The position numbers and the translations under genes are program-made. A DNA stretch of 48,314 nucleotides from a virus. Location of the stretch: IMG/VR virus record IMGVR_UViG_3300009610_000036, positions 1 through 48,314 of that record; one strand, 5' to 3'. The notes beneath the pieces are model-generated. The model worked only from the letters and a program-made list of their open reading frames with translations, searched no databases and was not told where the DNA came from. Positions 3,086-36,107 of this stretch are shown here, piece after piece; the first letter of the stretch is position 1; each line of letters starts with the position of its first letter.

Positions 3086-3156
3086 AGTATATTAGCATAA
3101 CAGGAAATGCGCTAGCCTTACGGCTAGAGAAGGTAGTTCGAGGCTACCATATACTG
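3086..3156 (+). ncRNA. tRNA-like cloverleaf 2, no anticodon loop
   Basis: This is the clearest of the three. Acceptor AGTATAT/ATATACT (3086-3092, 3149-3155). Linker TA. D arm GCAT/ATGC (3095-3110) with an 8-base loop containing GG. One base, then arm CTAGCC/GGCTAG (3112-3127) with loop TTAC. Variable AGAA. T arm GGTAG-TTCGAGG-CTACC (3132-3148). Discriminator G3156, no CCA. Every tRNA part is in register except the anticodon loop, which is 4 bases (6 at most if the last pair opens). It starts 10 bases after the preceding stop. Confidence 0.75.
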
Positions 3157-3193
3157 CTAAATGCCTGCTCGGCAATAAGAGCATTTTCGGCTA

Positions 3194-23511: not shown

Positions 23512-24069
23512 ATGTCAGAAAACCAAATCACACTACCAATGGTAGAAAGGAAGATTACAGTCATCACATCAGTTGGTGAAAAGAAGACCATTACAACTGA
23601 TGTTACAGTTTGGAGCCATCTTAGGAATGTGCTTTCACAGAATGGTTACAGCCTTAGCAACATGAAGGCTCTTGAAGGAGTTAAGAAAGGTACTTTGGAG
23701 CATGATGATGCTATCCTGCCTGTAGGGGACTTTAAGCTCTACCTTATGCCGGTTAAGTCTAAATCTGGAGCTAAAGCTGCTAAGCCTATTAAGAAAGCTC
23801 CTACTAAGGCTGAAAAGAAAGCTACTACTGCAAAGGTAGTAGCTAAGGTTAAAAAGGCAGTTGAGAAACTACCTAAGAAAGAAGCAAAGCCTGCTGCTGC
23901 TAAGAAATCTAAGAAAGCTAAGGCAGAAGAAGTACCTATTGAGATAGCTGTTATTGCTACTGTTGTTGAAGCTATCCCTGAACCTGTACCAGAGAAAGAG
24001 CAAACCAGAGATGAACTCCGTAGGGAAATTGCAGACTTAGCTAAAGGGTTAAGGGATGTACGCATCTAA
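23512..24069 (+). CDS. Ubiquitin-like protein with basic linker
   Basis: A 185-residue protein. Residues about 10-80 follow the ubiquitin beta-grasp pattern: strand pair RKITVITSVGEKKTITTDVT, helix VWSHLRNVLSQNG, then ALEGVKKGTLEHDDAILPVGDF and a last strand KLYLMPVKSKSG. About 60 Lys/Ala-rich residues follow (histone H1-like), then acidic and helical ends. There is no C-terminal Gly-Gly; a Gly at about 84 ends the domain, where a peptidase could expose it. It comes before E2-like, JAB and E1-like genes, which supports the call. An alternative is a DNA-binding protein with a basic tail. Confidence 0.6.
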   Translation: MSENQITLPMVERKITVITSVGEKKTITTDVTVWSHLRNVLSQNGYSLSNMKALEGVKKGTLEHDDAILPVGDFKLYLMPVKSKSGAKAAKPIKKAPTKAEKKATTAKVVAKVKKAVEKLPKKEAKPAAAKKSKKAKAEEVPIEIAVIATVVEAIPEPVPEKEQTRDELRREIADLAKGLRDVRI

Positions 24070-24087
24070 CCATCTAATCTTCCTAGT

Positions 24088-24127
24088 AAATAAGTAGTTG
24101 CTAGTGATAGTAGCTACTTATTTTTTT
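24088..24127 (+). terminator. Terminator or attenuator within the Ubl cassette
   Basis: AAATAAGTAG (24088-24097) is the exact complement of CTACTTATTT (24114-24123), followed by TTTT. It lies between the Ubl gene and the E2-like gene. This would let the Ubl be made in excess over the enzymes, as expected for a modifier and its conjugation machinery. Confidence 0.75.
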
Positions 24128-24149
24128 AAACAATCAAAGCCATAATAAG

Positions 24150-25466
24150 ATGAAAACATTACAAGATTATAGAGAACAAATAGCTAGGATTAAGGGAGAA
24201 CTAGATACTAGGACAATAGAGAGTAAGATGAGGTTGCTATATCTGCTCATAAGAGAGAGGTATTCTGCTACTTTAGTTGATAGGATGAAAGAGATGTATA
24301 AGGTACTTGAAAGTATATTTCCTAATAGGATAGGTATAGGGTATAATATTCATATAGGAGAAAGGACAGTTACACATAGAACAAAGTATTTCCCTGTAGA
24401 TACAAATGTAAGCATACTTGACCTATTCTATACAGATGAAGAGTATGCACACACCAGAGACAAGAAGAGTAAGTTTCTGTATCCTGAGTATCGTGATACT
24501 ATACAGATAGTAGAAGGGCTAGTAGTTACTCCAACAGATACCACATTTGTTATCCACTTTCCAGAAATTGAGATTACTAATACTGCTGGACTTGCACACA
24601 TAATAAAGGACTTATTTGTTAGGTTTAAGACAAAGATACAAGAAGATGGTGGTGGCTATGACATATCTATAGGTGATATTAAAGGAATGAGAACTACTTA
24701 TTCTAATAAGGAACTAAAGTGTGGTTATGTGCATAGTCATTTATCTACTCTAGCAGTAGTACCTGGAATGTATAGACCTAATGACAATGACCTTACTAAA
24801 TGGGAGAACTTCTGCTTAGGTACTGGAGATACAAGCTCTATTAGAGCTATCTTTAATGATGAGCAGGATATAGATAAGTTTGAAGCTTTCTGCTGGATGA
24901 TAGATAGCTTTGTAAGATGGGAATCTACTGAAGGTACACCATATATCAGTATGAGTAAGCTAGTGAATATGGACCATACTATGGAATCTATATCAGATCT
25001 TACTATGGTAGACTTACATAATGAATTACTAAGGAGAATAAGGAACTCTTATGATGTGAGGTGCAACTGGGGCTTCTGGGATAGTAAATATTACATAGAA
25101 GATGATGAGGACTTTCAGGCTTGGCTAGTAAATATATTTCCATTTGAAGCTAAGTACTGTAAAGATGCCACAGGAACGTACTTTATCAAGAGGGATTTTC
25201 CTAGGATAGCAGAAGATAGCTTAGAGCACTTGTCCTTTACCTTCAAAGGTAAGAAGATACCATATAAAGTATATAATGAAATGTCAGAAGATTTTGAGTG
25301 TACAAGATACATTAATCCTAAATTAAGCAATTATGTCAAATACAGACTTGAAAAAATCGCCAACTATGCCATCATTAAGAAAGGTACAGTTAGAAGGCAA
25401 GATACAGGTAATACTGTCGAAGAAAATACAAGAGAAGATTCTATATTTGTGCCAGTTACAACCTAG
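24150..25466 (+). CDS. E2-like conjugating protein (candidate)
   Basis: A 438-residue protein. The centre has strands FVIHFPEIEI, a helix, then CGYVHSHLST (191-200) and WENFCLGTG (218-226) with Cys222. H-x-H followed by CLG is the layout of bacterial E2-like proteins (HPH...CLG), whose Cys carries the modifier. N- and C-terminal regions are of unknown fold (EAFCWMIDSFVRWEST; DEDFQAWLVNIFPFEAKYC). It is much larger than a bare E2 (about 150 residues), so it is probably E2 fused to other domains. Its last 134 bases overlap the JAB gene. Confidence 0.55.
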   Translation: MKTLQDYREQIARIKGELDTRTIESKMRLLYLLIRERYSATLVDRMKEMYKVLESIFPNRIGIGYNIHIGERTVTHRTKYFPVDTNVSILDLFYTDEEYAHTRDKKSKFLYPEYRDTIQIVEGLVVTPTDTTFVIHFPEIEITNTAGLAHIIKDLFVRFKTKIQEDGGGYDISIGDIKGMRTTYSNKELKCGYVHSHLSTLAVVPGMYRPNDNDLTKWENFCLGTGDTSSIRAIFNDEQDIDKFEAFCWMIDSFVRWESTEGTPYISMSKLVNMDHTMESISDLTMVDLHNELLRRIRNSYDVRCNWGFWDSKYYIEDDEDFQAWLVNIFPFEAKYCKDATGTYFIKRDFPRIAEDSLEHLSFTFKGKKIPYKVYNEMSEDFECTRYINPKLSNYVKYRLEKIANYAIIKKGTVRRQDTGNTVEENTREDSIFVPVTT

Positions 25467-26520
25467 GCTGGAGTGGTCAGGTATATTATTGTATGCAGTT
25501 AAAGGTACAATGAAAGATATTACTAACTTGAAGTTAGTAGTCATGGATATACTCCTGATGGATATTGGAACTCAGGGTGGAACTACATTTGATTGGGGAC
25601 AAGAGCTAGTCACCTATATGATGGAGCATGAAGATGCAGAGAATTGGAAGTGGGGACATATACATAGTCATAATACTATGGATGTGTTCTTCTCTGGTAC
25701 TGATGTAAGTGAGCTAAATGATAACTCTCCATTACACAATGTCTATCTATCCTTGATAGTCAATAACTTCATGGAGATGATGGCTAGGGTAGCATTTGTA
25801 GGTAGTGTCACTAGGTTTCCTTGTAAGGACTTTACTGGTAAAGGATATGATCTGATACTAGAGGAAGCAGACCAGACAATGTTCTGGTATGAGTGTAGGA
25901 TAATGAAGGAAGGGAATAAGTTAATTATTGATAATGGCTTCAAAGAAAGGTATCTACAGGTAGAAGAGGAGTTCCAGAAGAGGGCAAAGGAGAAAGCTAA
26001 GGCAAATCCTTATGTAGCTCCGGGGATGCCTAATCAGATACCATATCCAGACTATGATAAGACTAAGAAAGAGCCTGTAGATACACCAACTTGGAAATGG
26101 AATAATGGGAACAATACCATAGTACCACCAAAGGAGAAGGTGACACAGGATGAACTGTTCTTATGTTATGCTTTAAGGTTAGGCTATGAGGTAATCAATG
26201 ACAATCTAAAAGATGTGCTGGATGATATAGAGCAGTCTAACATCAATGCAGATACTATAATAGATGGTATGAGATTTAACTTCTATGAGTATTATGATGA
26301 GTTCTTCAAGCCAGGTTTTAGTCAGATGCAGAGCAAGGATGAACACATAAGAGAGATCTTTACCTTTGCTTTGTCCTATCTAGCTAAGCTTACACCTAAG
26401 AATACACACTTCCATACACAGTACACATTTGGCAAGAACTTAGCCAGTACTTTCACTAAGATGTATATTGAATTTACTAATCCAAAAAAATCAGACAAGC
26501 ATGAGCAAACAACATCATGA
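25333..26520 (+). CDS. JAMM/JAB metalloprotease
   Basis: A 395-residue protein with a complete JAMM zinc site: E47 in LEWSGILLYAV, H111-S-H113, S121 and D124 (HxH-x7-S-x2-D). JAB domains remove or mature ubiquitin-like proteins in bacteria and phages. Residues about 190-395 have no known fold (NPYVAPGMPNQIPYPDYD, DTIIDGMRFNFYEYYDEFF). The domain's first strands lie in the overlap with the E2-like gene, so the 134-base overlap is real. It sits between the E2-like and E1-like genes. Confidence 0.8.
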   Translation: MSNTDLKKSPTMPSLRKVQLEGKIQVILSKKIQEKILYLCQLQPRLEWSGILLYAVKGTMKDITNLKLVVMDILLMDIGTQGGTTFDWGQELVTYMMEHEDAENWKWGHIHSHNTMDVFFSGTDVSELNDNSPLHNVYLSLIVNNFMEMMARVAFVGSVTRFPCKDFTGKGYDLILEEADQTMFWYECRIMKEGNKLIIDNGFKERYLQVEEEFQKRAKEKAKANPYVAPGMPNQIPYPDYDKTKKEPVDTPTWKWNNGNNTIVPPKEKVTQDELFLCYALRLGYEVINDNLKDVLDDIEQSNINADTIIDGMRFNFYEYYDEFFKPGFSQMQSKDEHIREIFTFALSYLAKLTPKNTHFHTQYTFGKNLASTFTKMYIEFTNPKKSDKHEQTTS

Positions 26521-27256
26521 GAGATTTAAGGATGCCCCTTGGTATCCTCTGGCACTCTCTACCACCATCCTCTTAGGAGGGGCTGGTGGTATAGGTAGCT
26601 GGGTAGCATTCCTGTTAGCCAGAGCAGGATTTAGAGTTATGGTATATGACCACGATACTGTAGAAGAGATTAACATAGGTGGTCAATTTTATAGTGTACA
26701 GGATACAGGTAAGCCAAAGGTAGAAGCACTAAGGAACAATATACTCAACCTTACAGGAGATATTATTACTATAGCTAATGAGAAGGTAGATGAGAAGACC
26801 GTTACTCATGATTTTGTAATTACTGCATTTGATAACATGAAGGCAAGAAGGGATATGTTTGAAAGTTGGTGCAGAGGTAACACAGAGAATAGTCTATTCA
26901 TAGATGGTAGGCTAAATGCTGAACAGATGTGGATATATTGTGTAAAAAATAATCATCTGGATATAGAGAACTATGCTAAATTGTTGTTTGATGATAGTGA
27001 AATAGAGGAAGCTCCATGCACTATGAAACAAACTACTCATTCAGCAGTAATGATAGCTTCTCATATAGTAGCCTTTCTAACTAATCACATAACTAATATA
27101 ACTAATGGGGATATGGATAGGACAGTACCATTTTCATGGGAATATATCATACCAATTAATTTAGTAACAGAGGAGGAATACTATGAGACAATTACAACCA
27201 CTACCAGAAAGGAGGGAGACAATGACACCATCAATAATAAGGATACCGAGACTTAG
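26501..27256 (+). CDS. E1/ThiF-like adenylyltransferase
   Basis: A 251-residue protein with the ThiF/E1 nucleotide-binding signature ILLGGAGGIGSWVAFLLARAG, the acidic strand MVYDHDTVEEINIGGQ, then DTGKPKVEAL (substrate Lys region) and FVITAFDNMKARRDM (the D-N motif). E1-like enzymes adenylate the C-terminus of a ubiquitin-like protein and pass it as a thioester; Cys in APCTMKQTTHSA is the likely acceptor. No Cys-x2-Cys zinc pairs. ATG 26501 lies in the end of the JAB gene (20-base overlap). The last 74 bases overlap the next gene. Confidence 0.85.
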   Translation: MSKQHHERFKDAPWYPLALSTTILLGGAGGIGSWVAFLLARAGFRVMVYDHDTVEEINIGGQFYSVQDTGKPKVEALRNNILNLTGDIITIANEKVDEKTVTHDFVITAFDNMKARRDMFESWCRGNTENSLFIDGRLNAEQMWIYCVKNNHLDIENYAKLLFDDSEIEEAPCTMKQTTHSAVMIASHIVAFLTNHITNITNGDMDRTVPFSWEYIIPINLVTEEEYYETITTTTRKEGDNDTINNKDTET

Positions 27257-27863
27257 TATGATACCACAGCTAGCTGGTAGAGTAGGAGATAGTGAGTACA
27301 TTCCTATAACTGGTTTAAGTACTATCAGTAATATAAGTAGGACAGATATGTATCACATAGGTCATGTGGCAGACCTTAACTATATCCACCAGACTAATAA
27401 GATAGCTTTATTCTGTGATACTCTGTATGGTCATAATAACAACTGGGCTATGAAGATGGTAAGAGGAGACTATGAGGATAAGAACTACTATGTTACTGCT
27501 AACATGATATACAGGTATCTACCACATATGTATGAGATAGTACCATTGATGATGACTTGTGTGAAGACAGCAGAGTTCCATAATGTAGATTGGAGTAATC
27601 CAGATGTAAGACAGTTTACCATACTAGTTGATTTGAAGTTTATCATAGAGCACAATGACCTGTATAGGAACATAAAGAGAAGCTACTTGAACATAGTATC
27701 TGGTGAGATAGATGTATTATATACTAGTAGGATGCTTGATTTGACATTTGCTTCTAAGATAGAACTACCACAGTTTACCAGACTAGATGGTATGATGCTT
27801 CACTTACAGGAAGAGATGAACACTATTGTACAGGAAGAAATTCTAGACAGAACTATTGTTTAA
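27183..27863 (+). CDS. Unknown fifth gene of the Ubl cassette
   Basis: A 226-residue protein (MRQLQPLPERRETMTPSIIR...). I recognise no family; the middle is beta-rich (NKIALFCDTLYGHNNNWAM, NYYVTANMIYRYLPHMYEIV), with aromatic residues. It has a strong Shine-Dalgarno, AGGAGG (27171-27176), 6 bases before ATG and overlaps the E1-like gene by 74 bases. That binds it to the cassette, so a role as target, adaptor or accessory is likely. Confidence 0.55.
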   Translation: MRQLQPLPERRETMTPSIIRIPRLSMIPQLAGRVGDSEYIPITGLSTISNISRTDMYHIGHVADLNYIHQTNKIALFCDTLYGHNNNWAMKMVRGDYEDKNYYVTANMIYRYLPHMYEIVPLMMTCVKTAEFHNVDWSNPDVRQFTILVDLKFIIEHNDLYRNIKRSYLNIVSGEIDVLYTSRMLDLTFASKIELPQFTRLDGMMLHLQEEMNTIVQEEILDRTIV

Positions 27864-35343: not shown

Positions 35344-36107
35344 AAACAGAATTAAAGGATTACTCTTATGGTAGTAGCTTGTGTAATATGTGGCAAAGAA
35401 CTTAAAGTTAAACCTTATAGGATTAAGAGACTAAAAGGTGGTAAGATAACTTGTAGCCTAGAGTGTACCTATAAATTAAAGGAAGAAACTATGTCAGGTG
35501 AGAATAACCATCAATATGGTTTAACAGGACATAATAATTCTTCATTTAAAAATGAAGATACACTTACTAATTATGGTTATTTGTTAGAATACTGTCCTAA
35601 TCATCCTAGACCACATGACCAACATGTACAAGGTACTAGAGTTAAGAAGCATAGGCTAGTTGTAGAAAGAAACTATAAGTTATTTGACAGTAAGTTCTTT
35701 GAAGAAGTAGATGGATGGATAGTCCTTAAAGAAGGATATGATGTTCATCACAAAGATGAGAACAAGCTTAATAATGATATTTCTAACTTAGAGATATTAA
35801 GTAGAGCTGAACATACTAGTTTGCACAATAACAAGCATGAGATCATAAGAGATAGTTCTAATGGTAGAATAATTGGAGTCTTTAAATTGGGTGAATTGCT
35901 GGAAAATCCTGAAGAGGACAATCAGCAGCCAAGCTAGGTAGGGATACCTAGAAGGTTCAACGACTAATAGCATACCACTAGAACAGTGATGAAGCTAACA
36001 CGAGTGCCCAACAACTTAGAAAGAAAGTTGATGATATAGTCTGAACTGCATGTATAACAAAAGAAGATGCAGACGTTAGGATAAAGAGCCTAGCGATAAC
36101 AAAATTG
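35344..36107 (+). ncRNA. Group I self-splicing intron in dut
   Basis: A 764-base intron with borders set by the dUTPase reading frame: exon 1 ends in T (35343) and the intron ends in G (36107), as in group I introns. The 3' part carries the GTTCAACGACTA type conserved strand (35955-35966) and GATATAGTCTGA (36033-36044), where GACTA and TAGTC form the P7 pairing. It contains an HNH gene (35368-35937). It interrupts motif 3, the catalytic site, as is typical. The P1 pairing to the exon could not be placed with certainty. Confidence 0.85.
35368..35937 (+). CDS. Intron-encoded HNH homing endonuclease
   Basis: A 189-residue protein inside the dut intron, starting 24 bases into it. The N-terminus has a zinc-finger-like CVICGKELKVKPYRIKRLKGG...CSLEC; residues about 118-148 hold the HNH core GYDVHHKDENKLNNDISNLEILSRAEHTSLHN (D-x-H-H-K, N-L, H). 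Such enzymes cut the intronless dut allele and copy the intron into it. The gene ends before the catalytic 3' intron core, so intron splicing and the coding frame do not conflict. Confidence 0.9.
   Translation: MVVACVICGKELKVKPYRIKRLKGGKITCSLECTYKLKEETMSGENNHQYGLTGHNNSSFKNEDTLTNYGYLLEYCPNHPRPHDQHVQGTRVKKHRLVVERNYKLFDSKFFEEVDGWIVLKEGYDVHHKDENKLNNDISNLEILSRAEHTSLHNNKHEIIRDSSNGRIIGVFKLGELLENPEEDNQQPS

Follow-up and report, generated by a model that had tools for sequence, protein, structure and literature searches.

A putative ubiquitin-like conjugation cassette encoded among the replication genes of a phage

Full bacterial ubiquitin-like (Ubl) cascades are known mainly as plasmid modules (PRTRC) or as defence modules (Bil, CBASS). 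The closest known system to the locus described here is the plasmid PRTRC cassette, which has the composition ParB-E-C-F-B-A-ThiF (row 6d of Iyer et al., 2006, PMC1779556). No description of a phage or crAss Ubl system was found in the open-access literature searched (subscription papers and preprints were outside the scope), and the word ubiquitin is absent from a 2021 genome survey and a 2023 review of crAss-like phages.

The locus lies in the window, i.e., the whole 48,314-nt stretch analysed (positions 1 to 48,314 of the IMG/VR record IMGVR_UViG_3300009610_000036). Four of its genes likely constitute a complete phage-encoded Ubl conjugation and deconjugation system (probability about 0.8). 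The genes, their order and conservation, the predicted Ubl fold and a hairpin behind the Ubl gene are supported directly; the chemical steps, the effect on transcription and the targets are inferred, as there are no biochemical data.

The cassette is transcribed from the + strand and includes genes coding for a Ubl precursor (23512..24069, 185 aa), an E2-like protein (24150..25466, 438 aa), a JAB/JAMM metallopeptidase (25333..26520, 395 aa) and an E1/ThiF-type adenylating enzyme (26501..27256, 251 aa). These are followed by an accessory gene (27183..27863, 226 aa) whose product has an unknown fold and which overlaps the E1 gene. All five ORFs were already located at these positions by the sequence-only reading; those starting at 24150, 25333, 26501 and 27183 each overlap a neighbour. 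The four main genes are found together in the same order in 107 of 131 phage loci groups, counted as independent when they have no identical protein of at least 100 aa in common, so their co-occurrence exceeds chance. The remaining groups are truncated contigs or belong to a second lineage, and none has an alternative order. The same four-gene block is present in crAss001 as gp79-gp76.

The cassette is flanked by a primase-like gene (21267), a UDG gene (22771) and an exonuclease VIII-like gene (27882), which agrees with the replication cluster, containing UDG and a RecB-like nuclease, proposed earlier. It is placed beside core replication genes in the 107 loci groups and has no variable-region setting. 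Searched at the DNA level, the window region matched no named phage, so no close isolate is known. Scanning of genome contigs with an E1 pattern found one locus, on a 3.7-kb contig of a Spirochaetia MAG; the pattern is narrow and further cellular copies are not excluded. The cassette is carried by a family of viruses infecting Bacteroidetes-type bacteria, and its cultivable carriers include crAss001 (host Bacteroides intestinalis) and Fpv1 (Flavobacterium psychrophilum). Annotations of the cassette genes in such phages read thiamine biosynthesis, metalloprotease or hypothetical.

The 23512 product consists of an N-terminal ubiquitin-fold domain extending to Gly86 (codon ending at 23769), a Lys/Ala-rich tail and a C-terminal helix. 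The beta-grasp-like N-terminal domain expected from its letters was confirmed by structure prediction: the AF2 model of this domain (pLDDT 95-98, order of strands and helix bbabb) superposes with its residues 13-85 on residues 1-76 of ubiquitin (1UBQ; Z 9.3, rmsd 2.4 over 70 residues). Rows from annotated phage records were left out of the alignments used for structure prediction. Gly86 falls at ubiquitin Gly76 and is the only invariant residue of the family (94/94 homologues), within a KSG motif in 80 of these and KAG in 7. At the sequence level, the family has no significant profile match to Pfam ubiquitin families, a PDB sequence search with its profile returned chance matches only, and a Pfam/NCBIfam search with the single protein made no Ubl call. 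The gene product matches PHROG 15560 (E 1e-11).

In every Ubl homologue Gly86 is internal and is followed by a C-terminal extension, so processing of the Ubl is needed; no locus of sufficient length to include it lacks the JAMM gene. The extension contains 20 Lys in 54 residues in the window and a conserved helical GKN.T..T..L domain in relatives, and its sequence varies freely across homologues, unlike Gly86. The 23512 product thus looks like a Ubl precursor. The predicted mature Ubl (23548..23769, + strand) would comprise residues 13-86 and end with -KSKSG, cleavage after Gly86 being inferred.

A hairpin resembling an intrinsic terminator (24090..24129, + strand) occupies the gap between the Ubl and E2-like genes. 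It has a 14-bp stem, a GTGA loop and a T-run (-18.4 kcal/mol). Such hairpins follow the Ubl gene in 98 of 118 loci, against a background of 16% in dinucleotide shuffles and 34% at other junctions with similar gaps. The hairpin is a new observation of this analysis, and it suggests that the Ubl is made in excess over its enzymes, an inferred effect on transcription.

The H-x-H...CLG motif with Cys222 noticed earlier in the E2-like protein is indeed present. H197, C222, E258, S259 and G262 are, together with Met1, the only invariant residues among 91 homologues, while H195, the first His of H-x-H, is His in 78 of them. Cys222 (91/91) is the candidate catalytic residue, with His197 (91/91), on conservation alone. 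The family matches PHROG 15310 (E 3e-19). As to its E2 identity, also claimed earlier, the conserved His and Cys are firm and the fold is only weakly matched. When Foldseek candidates were re-ranked by VIA-align, the best of 999 chains was the Tsg101 UEV (Z 6.1, under the level that the tool calls safe), followed by Cap2 (4.7), Cdc34 (4.3), Atg10 (3.9) and Atg3 (3.7); RWD domains were also in the top ten. Plain Foldseek of the model against PDB placed no E2 in the top 50. None of the 91 family members matches a Prok-E2 Pfam family at E 0.1, Pfam E2 families gave no significant match, a PDB sequence search with the family profile returned chance matches only, and the single-protein Pfam/NCBIfam search made no E2 call. 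Support for the E2 fold is thus limited to weak but specific structure matches.

A second phage lineage carries an analogous cassette, likewise in the order Ubl-E2-JAMM-E1, and its E2 has a textbook E2-style motif, YHPHID..G.ACLG. Comparison of the two E2 families by hhalign was not significant, with the best local alignment putting Cys on Cys; the two Ubl families showed no hhalign match, and the second-lineage E2 had no match among named phages. The E2 assignment rests on the invariant His and Cys, the structural matches and this analogous cassette, with no significant sequence match, and we regard it as likely rather than proven.

The JAMM site of the 25333 product is complete, exactly as claimed earlier: E47, H111 and H113 are present in 103/103 and S121 and D124 in 105/105 homologues covering these positions. 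All 14 JAMM family members scanned match Pfam Prok-JAB (best E 4.9e-6); the protein in the window scores 15.3 bits, under the gathering threshold of 25 bits. The E1, annotated in database records as a thiamine biosynthesis protein, contains the GGAGGIG signature noted earlier and a single ThiF domain (Pfam ThiF 67.4 bits, gathering 28.1, 1.4e-18). It scores 49.8 bits with the PRTRC_ThiF NCBIfam equivalog, whose cut-off is 144.75 bits. Cys173 (APCTMKQ) is present in all 88 homologues covering the position; its thioester role is inferred. Where the NxxRQ motif would supply its adenylation Arg, 80 of 89 phage E1s have Gly, a point against the conjugation reading.

The strong Shine-Dalgarno sequence and the E1 overlap reported for the fifth gene also held (GGAGG located 5' of ATG; overlap of 74 nt). 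Roughly half of the loci groups have a homologue in this position behind E1. The product weakly resembles crAss001 gp75 in a profile comparison (E 5e-4) and lacks conserved catalytic-looking residues.

Overall, the claim of a complete ubiquitin-type pathway is supported, with stronger evidence than was available to the sequence-only reading. Three outcomes set beforehand as refuting it (no beta-grasp domain at 23512, no E2-like fold and no conserved Cys222 at 24150, no co-occurrence of the genes in relatives) were not met, as the Ubl fold is of ubiquitin type, Cys222 is invariant and the genes do co-occur.

In the mechanism we propose, Ubl would be made as a precursor and in surplus, as most transcripts would stop at the hairpin, while read-through would yield co-translated E2-like, JAMM and E1 proteins. 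Cleavage of the precursor after Gly86 by the JAMM peptidase would leave a -KSG C-terminus. E1 would adenylate the C-terminal glycine and then carry Ubl on Cys173; the E2-like protein would receive it on Cys222 and join it to target amines, and JAMM may also take Ubl off targets. No E3 or proteasome partner has been identified. The targets probably lie among the proteins, of phage or host, at the replication complex. Modification of replication or virion proteins and counter-defence had all been suggested earlier; since the cassette is placed among primase, UDG and exonuclease genes, a replication-stage function is favoured, by inference from location.

Counter-defence is a possible but unlikely alternative and differs from our main reading in the target, with the same chemistry: Ubl would be put on host immune proteins, e.g., CBASS or bacterial Ubl defence components, or JAMM would strip tags from them. 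Bacterial E1-E2-JAB modules do work in antiphage defence (PMC10097602, PMC11354881). However, the cassette sits among core replication genes, not in a variable region, in the 107 loci groups, and PADLOC models match weakly, only through the shared E1 and JAB folds. Less likely is a sulfur-carrier pathway of ThiS/MoaD type, in which E1 adenylation would lead to a thiocarboxylate, sulfur would pass to tRNA, a nucleotide or a cofactor, and JAMM would free the carrier. The E1 does belong to the ThiF family, with the thiamine biosynthesis annotation mentioned above, and bacterial JAMM peptidases process sulfur carriers. Against this, an E2-like gene with invariant His and Cys always lies between Ubl and JAMM, no ThiG, rhodanese or thiouridylase was found among the flanking genes examined or annotated, and Ubl ends with KSG, not GG. 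A non-covalent or self-modifying assembly, in which Ubl would serve a DNA-binding scaffold as its protein-protein module and the enzymes would merely process or cyclise Ubl, could draw on the extension carried by every Ubl (Lys-rich in the window, helical in relatives) but is very unlikely, as Gly86 alone is invariant while the extension varies and the invariant E1 Cys173 and E2 Cys222 would have no obvious need.

Returning to the conjugation reading, cultivable phages carry the cassette stably within their replication block, and it broadens the range of known E2 and Ubl families. It suggests that these phages tag proteins as eukaryotic cells do, probably around DNA copying, the activity itself being inferred. 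As modifier, E1, E2 and peptidase are all virus-encoded, prokaryotic Ubl targets become directly testable by infected-cell proteomics. We also speculate, with considerably more doubt than belief, that crass-like and related phages run self-sufficient ubiquitin-type signalling in genome replication, with a terminator-driven surplus of modifier, its release by JAMM from a nucleic-acid-binding tail and reversible attachment to replication proteins, in the way that SUMO and ubiquitin work in eukaryotic replication. If so, prokaryotic Ubl systems would share the modifier-terminator-enzymes layout as a general design.

Among known systems, the TAPI/TAPK genes of Lambda and T1 (PMC1779556) also combine a phage-borne Ub-like domain with a nearby JAB, but they lack E1 and E2 and are tail assembly genes, not part of a replication block. 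UBA5, the noncanonical UFM1 E1, is the best solved relative of the phage E1 (E 1.4e-12) and likewise has a single adenylation domain with no separate Cys domain (PMC12355090), although it is eukaryotic and serves another Ubl. Equivalence of phage Cys173 and UBA5 Cys250 is possible but only a lead, since the profile alignments ended before the Cys.

CBASS Cap2/Cap3 also provides E1 and E2 activities plus JAMM, and Cap2 is second among the structural matches of the E2-like protein (Z 4.7). However, Cap2 is an E1-E2 fusion which conjugates the nucleotidyltransferase without a Ubl (PMC12355090), whereas the phage E2-like protein (438 aa) and E1 (251 aa) are separate and a true Ubl is present. Bil/BUB (BilABCD; Citrobacter BubCD in PDB) shares all four functions, Ubl, E2, E1 and JAB, and we count the exposure of its Ubl glycine by JAB trimming (PMC11354881) as a further likeness, to the trimming inferred here. 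It differs in the two Ubl domains of BilA, against one in the phage Ubl, in the BilD pair of inactive and active adenylation domains with a Cys domain (both PMC11354881), against a minimal 251-aa E1, and in its use for host defence, while the cassette studied here is phage-encoded.

Compared with PRTRC, the cassette is phage-borne, lacks the ParB, E and F genes, and its Ubl bears a long extension. The phage Ubl and E2 reach an hhalign probability of only 0.3% with PRTRC C and B, respectively; neither comparison is significant, and the best local alignment of the E2 pair puts Cys on Cys. The invariant His is N-terminal to the Cys in the phage E2 and C-terminal in the PRTRC E2 (PMC1779556), and the NxxRQ Arg present in PRTRC E1 is lost in the phage E1. 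Both cassettes are arranged as Ubl(C)-E2(B)-JAB(A)-E1(ThiF), the phage E1 and JAMM align by hhalign with PRTRC ThiF (99.1%) and protein A (71%), PRTRC C proteins terminate in, or just before, -KG, and a terminator-like hairpin follows the C gene in 6 of 10 plasmid loci.

The five genes of the cassette are all on the plus strand and code for a Ubl protein (23512-24069), an E2-like protein (24150-25466), a JAMM peptidase (25333-26520), an E1/ThiF protein (26501-27256) and an accessory protein (27183-27863). The sequence-only reading had placed every ORF at these positions, and all of these placements held. In its parts, their order and their invariant residues, the cassette matches a pathway that conjugates and deconjugates a ubiquitin-like protein, a reading we consider likely (probability about 0.8); its chemistry, targets and role are inferred.

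The Ubl product gave a confident AlphaFold2 model (pLDDT 95-98) with strands at 13-19, 24-29, 51-55 and 74-80 and a helix at 34-43. In VIA-align its residues 13-85 matched residues 1-76 of ubiquitin (1UBQ, Z 9.3), and the match to UBA6-bound ubiquitin stops at residue 86, equivalent to ubiquitin residue 76. Gly86 is the sole invariant residue among 94 homologues, in which mean column identity is just 15%. It ends a stretch of most often 75-76 residues and is preceded by KS (KSG, 80 of 94) or KA (KAG, 7 of 94). All 94 homologues continue beyond this glycine, mostly with Ala, Ser or Gly as the next residue. The extension is helical in relatives, with the pattern GKN.T..T..L, and carries 20 lysines within 54 residues in the window's protein. 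That this extension binds DNA is only a guess.

The E2 assignment of the 438-aa protein is likely, though not proven. Only Met1, H197, C222, E258, S259 and G262 are invariant across 91 homologues, in which the His-to-Cys spacing ranges between 8 and 44. In the predicted structure (pLDDT 80.6, pTM 0.75) helices form the N-terminal part and are followed by long strands (124-185), the active-site loop with H197 and C222, and further helices; E2 topology has the same order of elements. Among 999 re-aligned PDB chains the top matches were Tsg101 UEV (Z 6.1), Cap2 (4.7), Cdc34 (4.3), Atg10 (3.9), Atg3 (3.7) and kinetochore RWD domains. These Z values are modest, one of the first ten rows is unrelated, plain Foldseek placed no E2 among its top 50, and Pfam E2 families gave no match. 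In three loci (L106:5876-7936, L084:5423-7516, L103:3884-5869) the E2-like protein has 660-700 aa, exceeding that of the window by about 250 aa, and gives no Pfam match.

The JAMM site of the peptidase is complete, and its profile aligns HSH and FFS.TD with PRTRC protein A (71% probability). The E1 is a ThiF protein (99% against PRTRC ThiF), with UBA5 as its best solved relative. Cys173 is kept in 88 of 88 homologues, and K73, D111, R116 and R137 in 89 of 89. The adenylation arginine of NxxRQ is absent, being Gly in 80 of 89, whereas PRTRC ThiF retains it. This is the most useful biochemical warning about the phage E1, and altered chemistry is possible.

A family-A DNA polymerase gene lies upstream of the cassette, which is flanked by a primase-like gene, a uracil-DNA glycosylase (UDG) and an exonuclease VIII-like gene. 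Two giant minus-strand genes with PHROG matches are located at the end of this 48,314-base virus record, one of them matching the family of a 4,400-residue virion structural protein; proteins of such size are typical of crAss-like phages. A Group I catalytic intron (35850-36060; Rfam RF00028, 71 bits) is located near ORF 35368-35937, and at 3086-3157 ARAGORN reported a tRNA-like gene for which it called an anticodon of 2 bases.

The nearest named records that carry the E1 gene number 74 and come from Flavobacterium phages (genus Fipvunavirus) and from Steigviridae, among them Bacteroides phage crAss001; the E2-like protein returned identical record and organism counts. In crAss001 the block runs from gp79 to gp75, with UDG next in line; gp79 and gp78 are annotated as hypothetical, gp77 as having a metalloprotease domain and gp76 as ThiF. 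It recurs in Fpv1, cr128_1 and bajarodcaudo virus 1, whose fourth gene was named E1 enzyme family protein by the record's authors. IMG/VR scans found 341 relatives with E1, 122 with E2 and 99 with Ubl. This locus sample is not neutral, having been fetched with the cassette proteins themselves, yet each seed recovers the other three. After merging loci that have any identical protein of at least 100 aa in common, the order Ubl-E2-JAMM-E1 was found in 107 of 131 groups, the remainder being truncated or of a second lineage. A search of 84,980 bacterial and archaeal genomes with a narrow E1 pattern gave a single relative; it lies on a 3.7-kb contig that was assigned to a Spirochaetia MAG but may be a mis-binned phage.

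Six IMG/VR loci (L026-L031) of the second lineage have only distant JAMM and E1 relatives. In the three that were fully read, an analogous Ubl-E2-JAMM-E1 cassette (L027:1604-5477, L028:890-4935, L031:6772-10741) adjoins Sak4-like and DnaB genes. Upstream of its JAMM and E1 genes, one gene codes for a 79-aa protein with ..KAKQESG before nine terminal residues and another for a product of roughly 700 aa whose motif YHPHID..G.ACLG resembles the HPN...Cys signature of E2s. The former is 85% conserved against 28-38% for the accompanying E2, which is what a modifier would show; its beta-grasp assignment is based on very weak ThiS/TGS matches.

While the E2, JAMM and E1 genes mutually overlap, Ubl is separated from E2 by a median of 62 nt. 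An intrinsic-terminator-like hairpin follows Ubl in 98 of 118 loci (24090-24129 in the window), and in 91 with stems of at least 9 bp. Such hairpins occur in 16% of dinucleotide shuffles (3% at stems of at least 9 bp), 34% (25%) of other tandem junctions of comparable gap and at most 28% (14%) of cases behind other cassette and neighbour genes. As stem sequences differ among loci, it is the structure rather than the sequence that is kept. L027 of the second lineage has the same layout. Read most simply, the layout would let the phage produce more modifier than enzymes; this is inferred from the layout without transcript data. No description of such a layout was found in the literature searched.

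In Fpv1 the JAMM gene is split at its HSH codons by a minus-strand LAGLIDADG endonuclease ORF (L004:8072-9067), and a Group I intron immediately upstream of an E1 fragment (L020:9715-9995) likely interrupts that gene. Such mobile elements usually occupy conserved sites of needed genes, and by analogy their presence may bear on the importance of the cassette to the phage. The crAss001 middle genes, mostly replication genes, are expressed 10-30 min after infection (PMC8375218); judging by location, gp75-gp79 would be among them.

PRTRC plasmid cassettes have the gene order Ubl(C)-F-B(E2)-A(JAB)-ThiF and include a Prok-E2_D protein; their C proteins carry KG at the C-terminus or a few residues before it. 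A terminator-like hairpin follows C in 6 of 10 plasmids (L259, L261, L263, L267, L269, L270), although the hairpin-bearing ones are mostly from Burkholderiales and non-independent. As a variant, the cassette is new in being phage-borne, in its Ubl and E2 families, in its minimal E1 and in the terminator layout. By the tests made it belongs to none of PRTRC, Bil or Cap2; by analogy, and with activity only inferred, it may work as they do.
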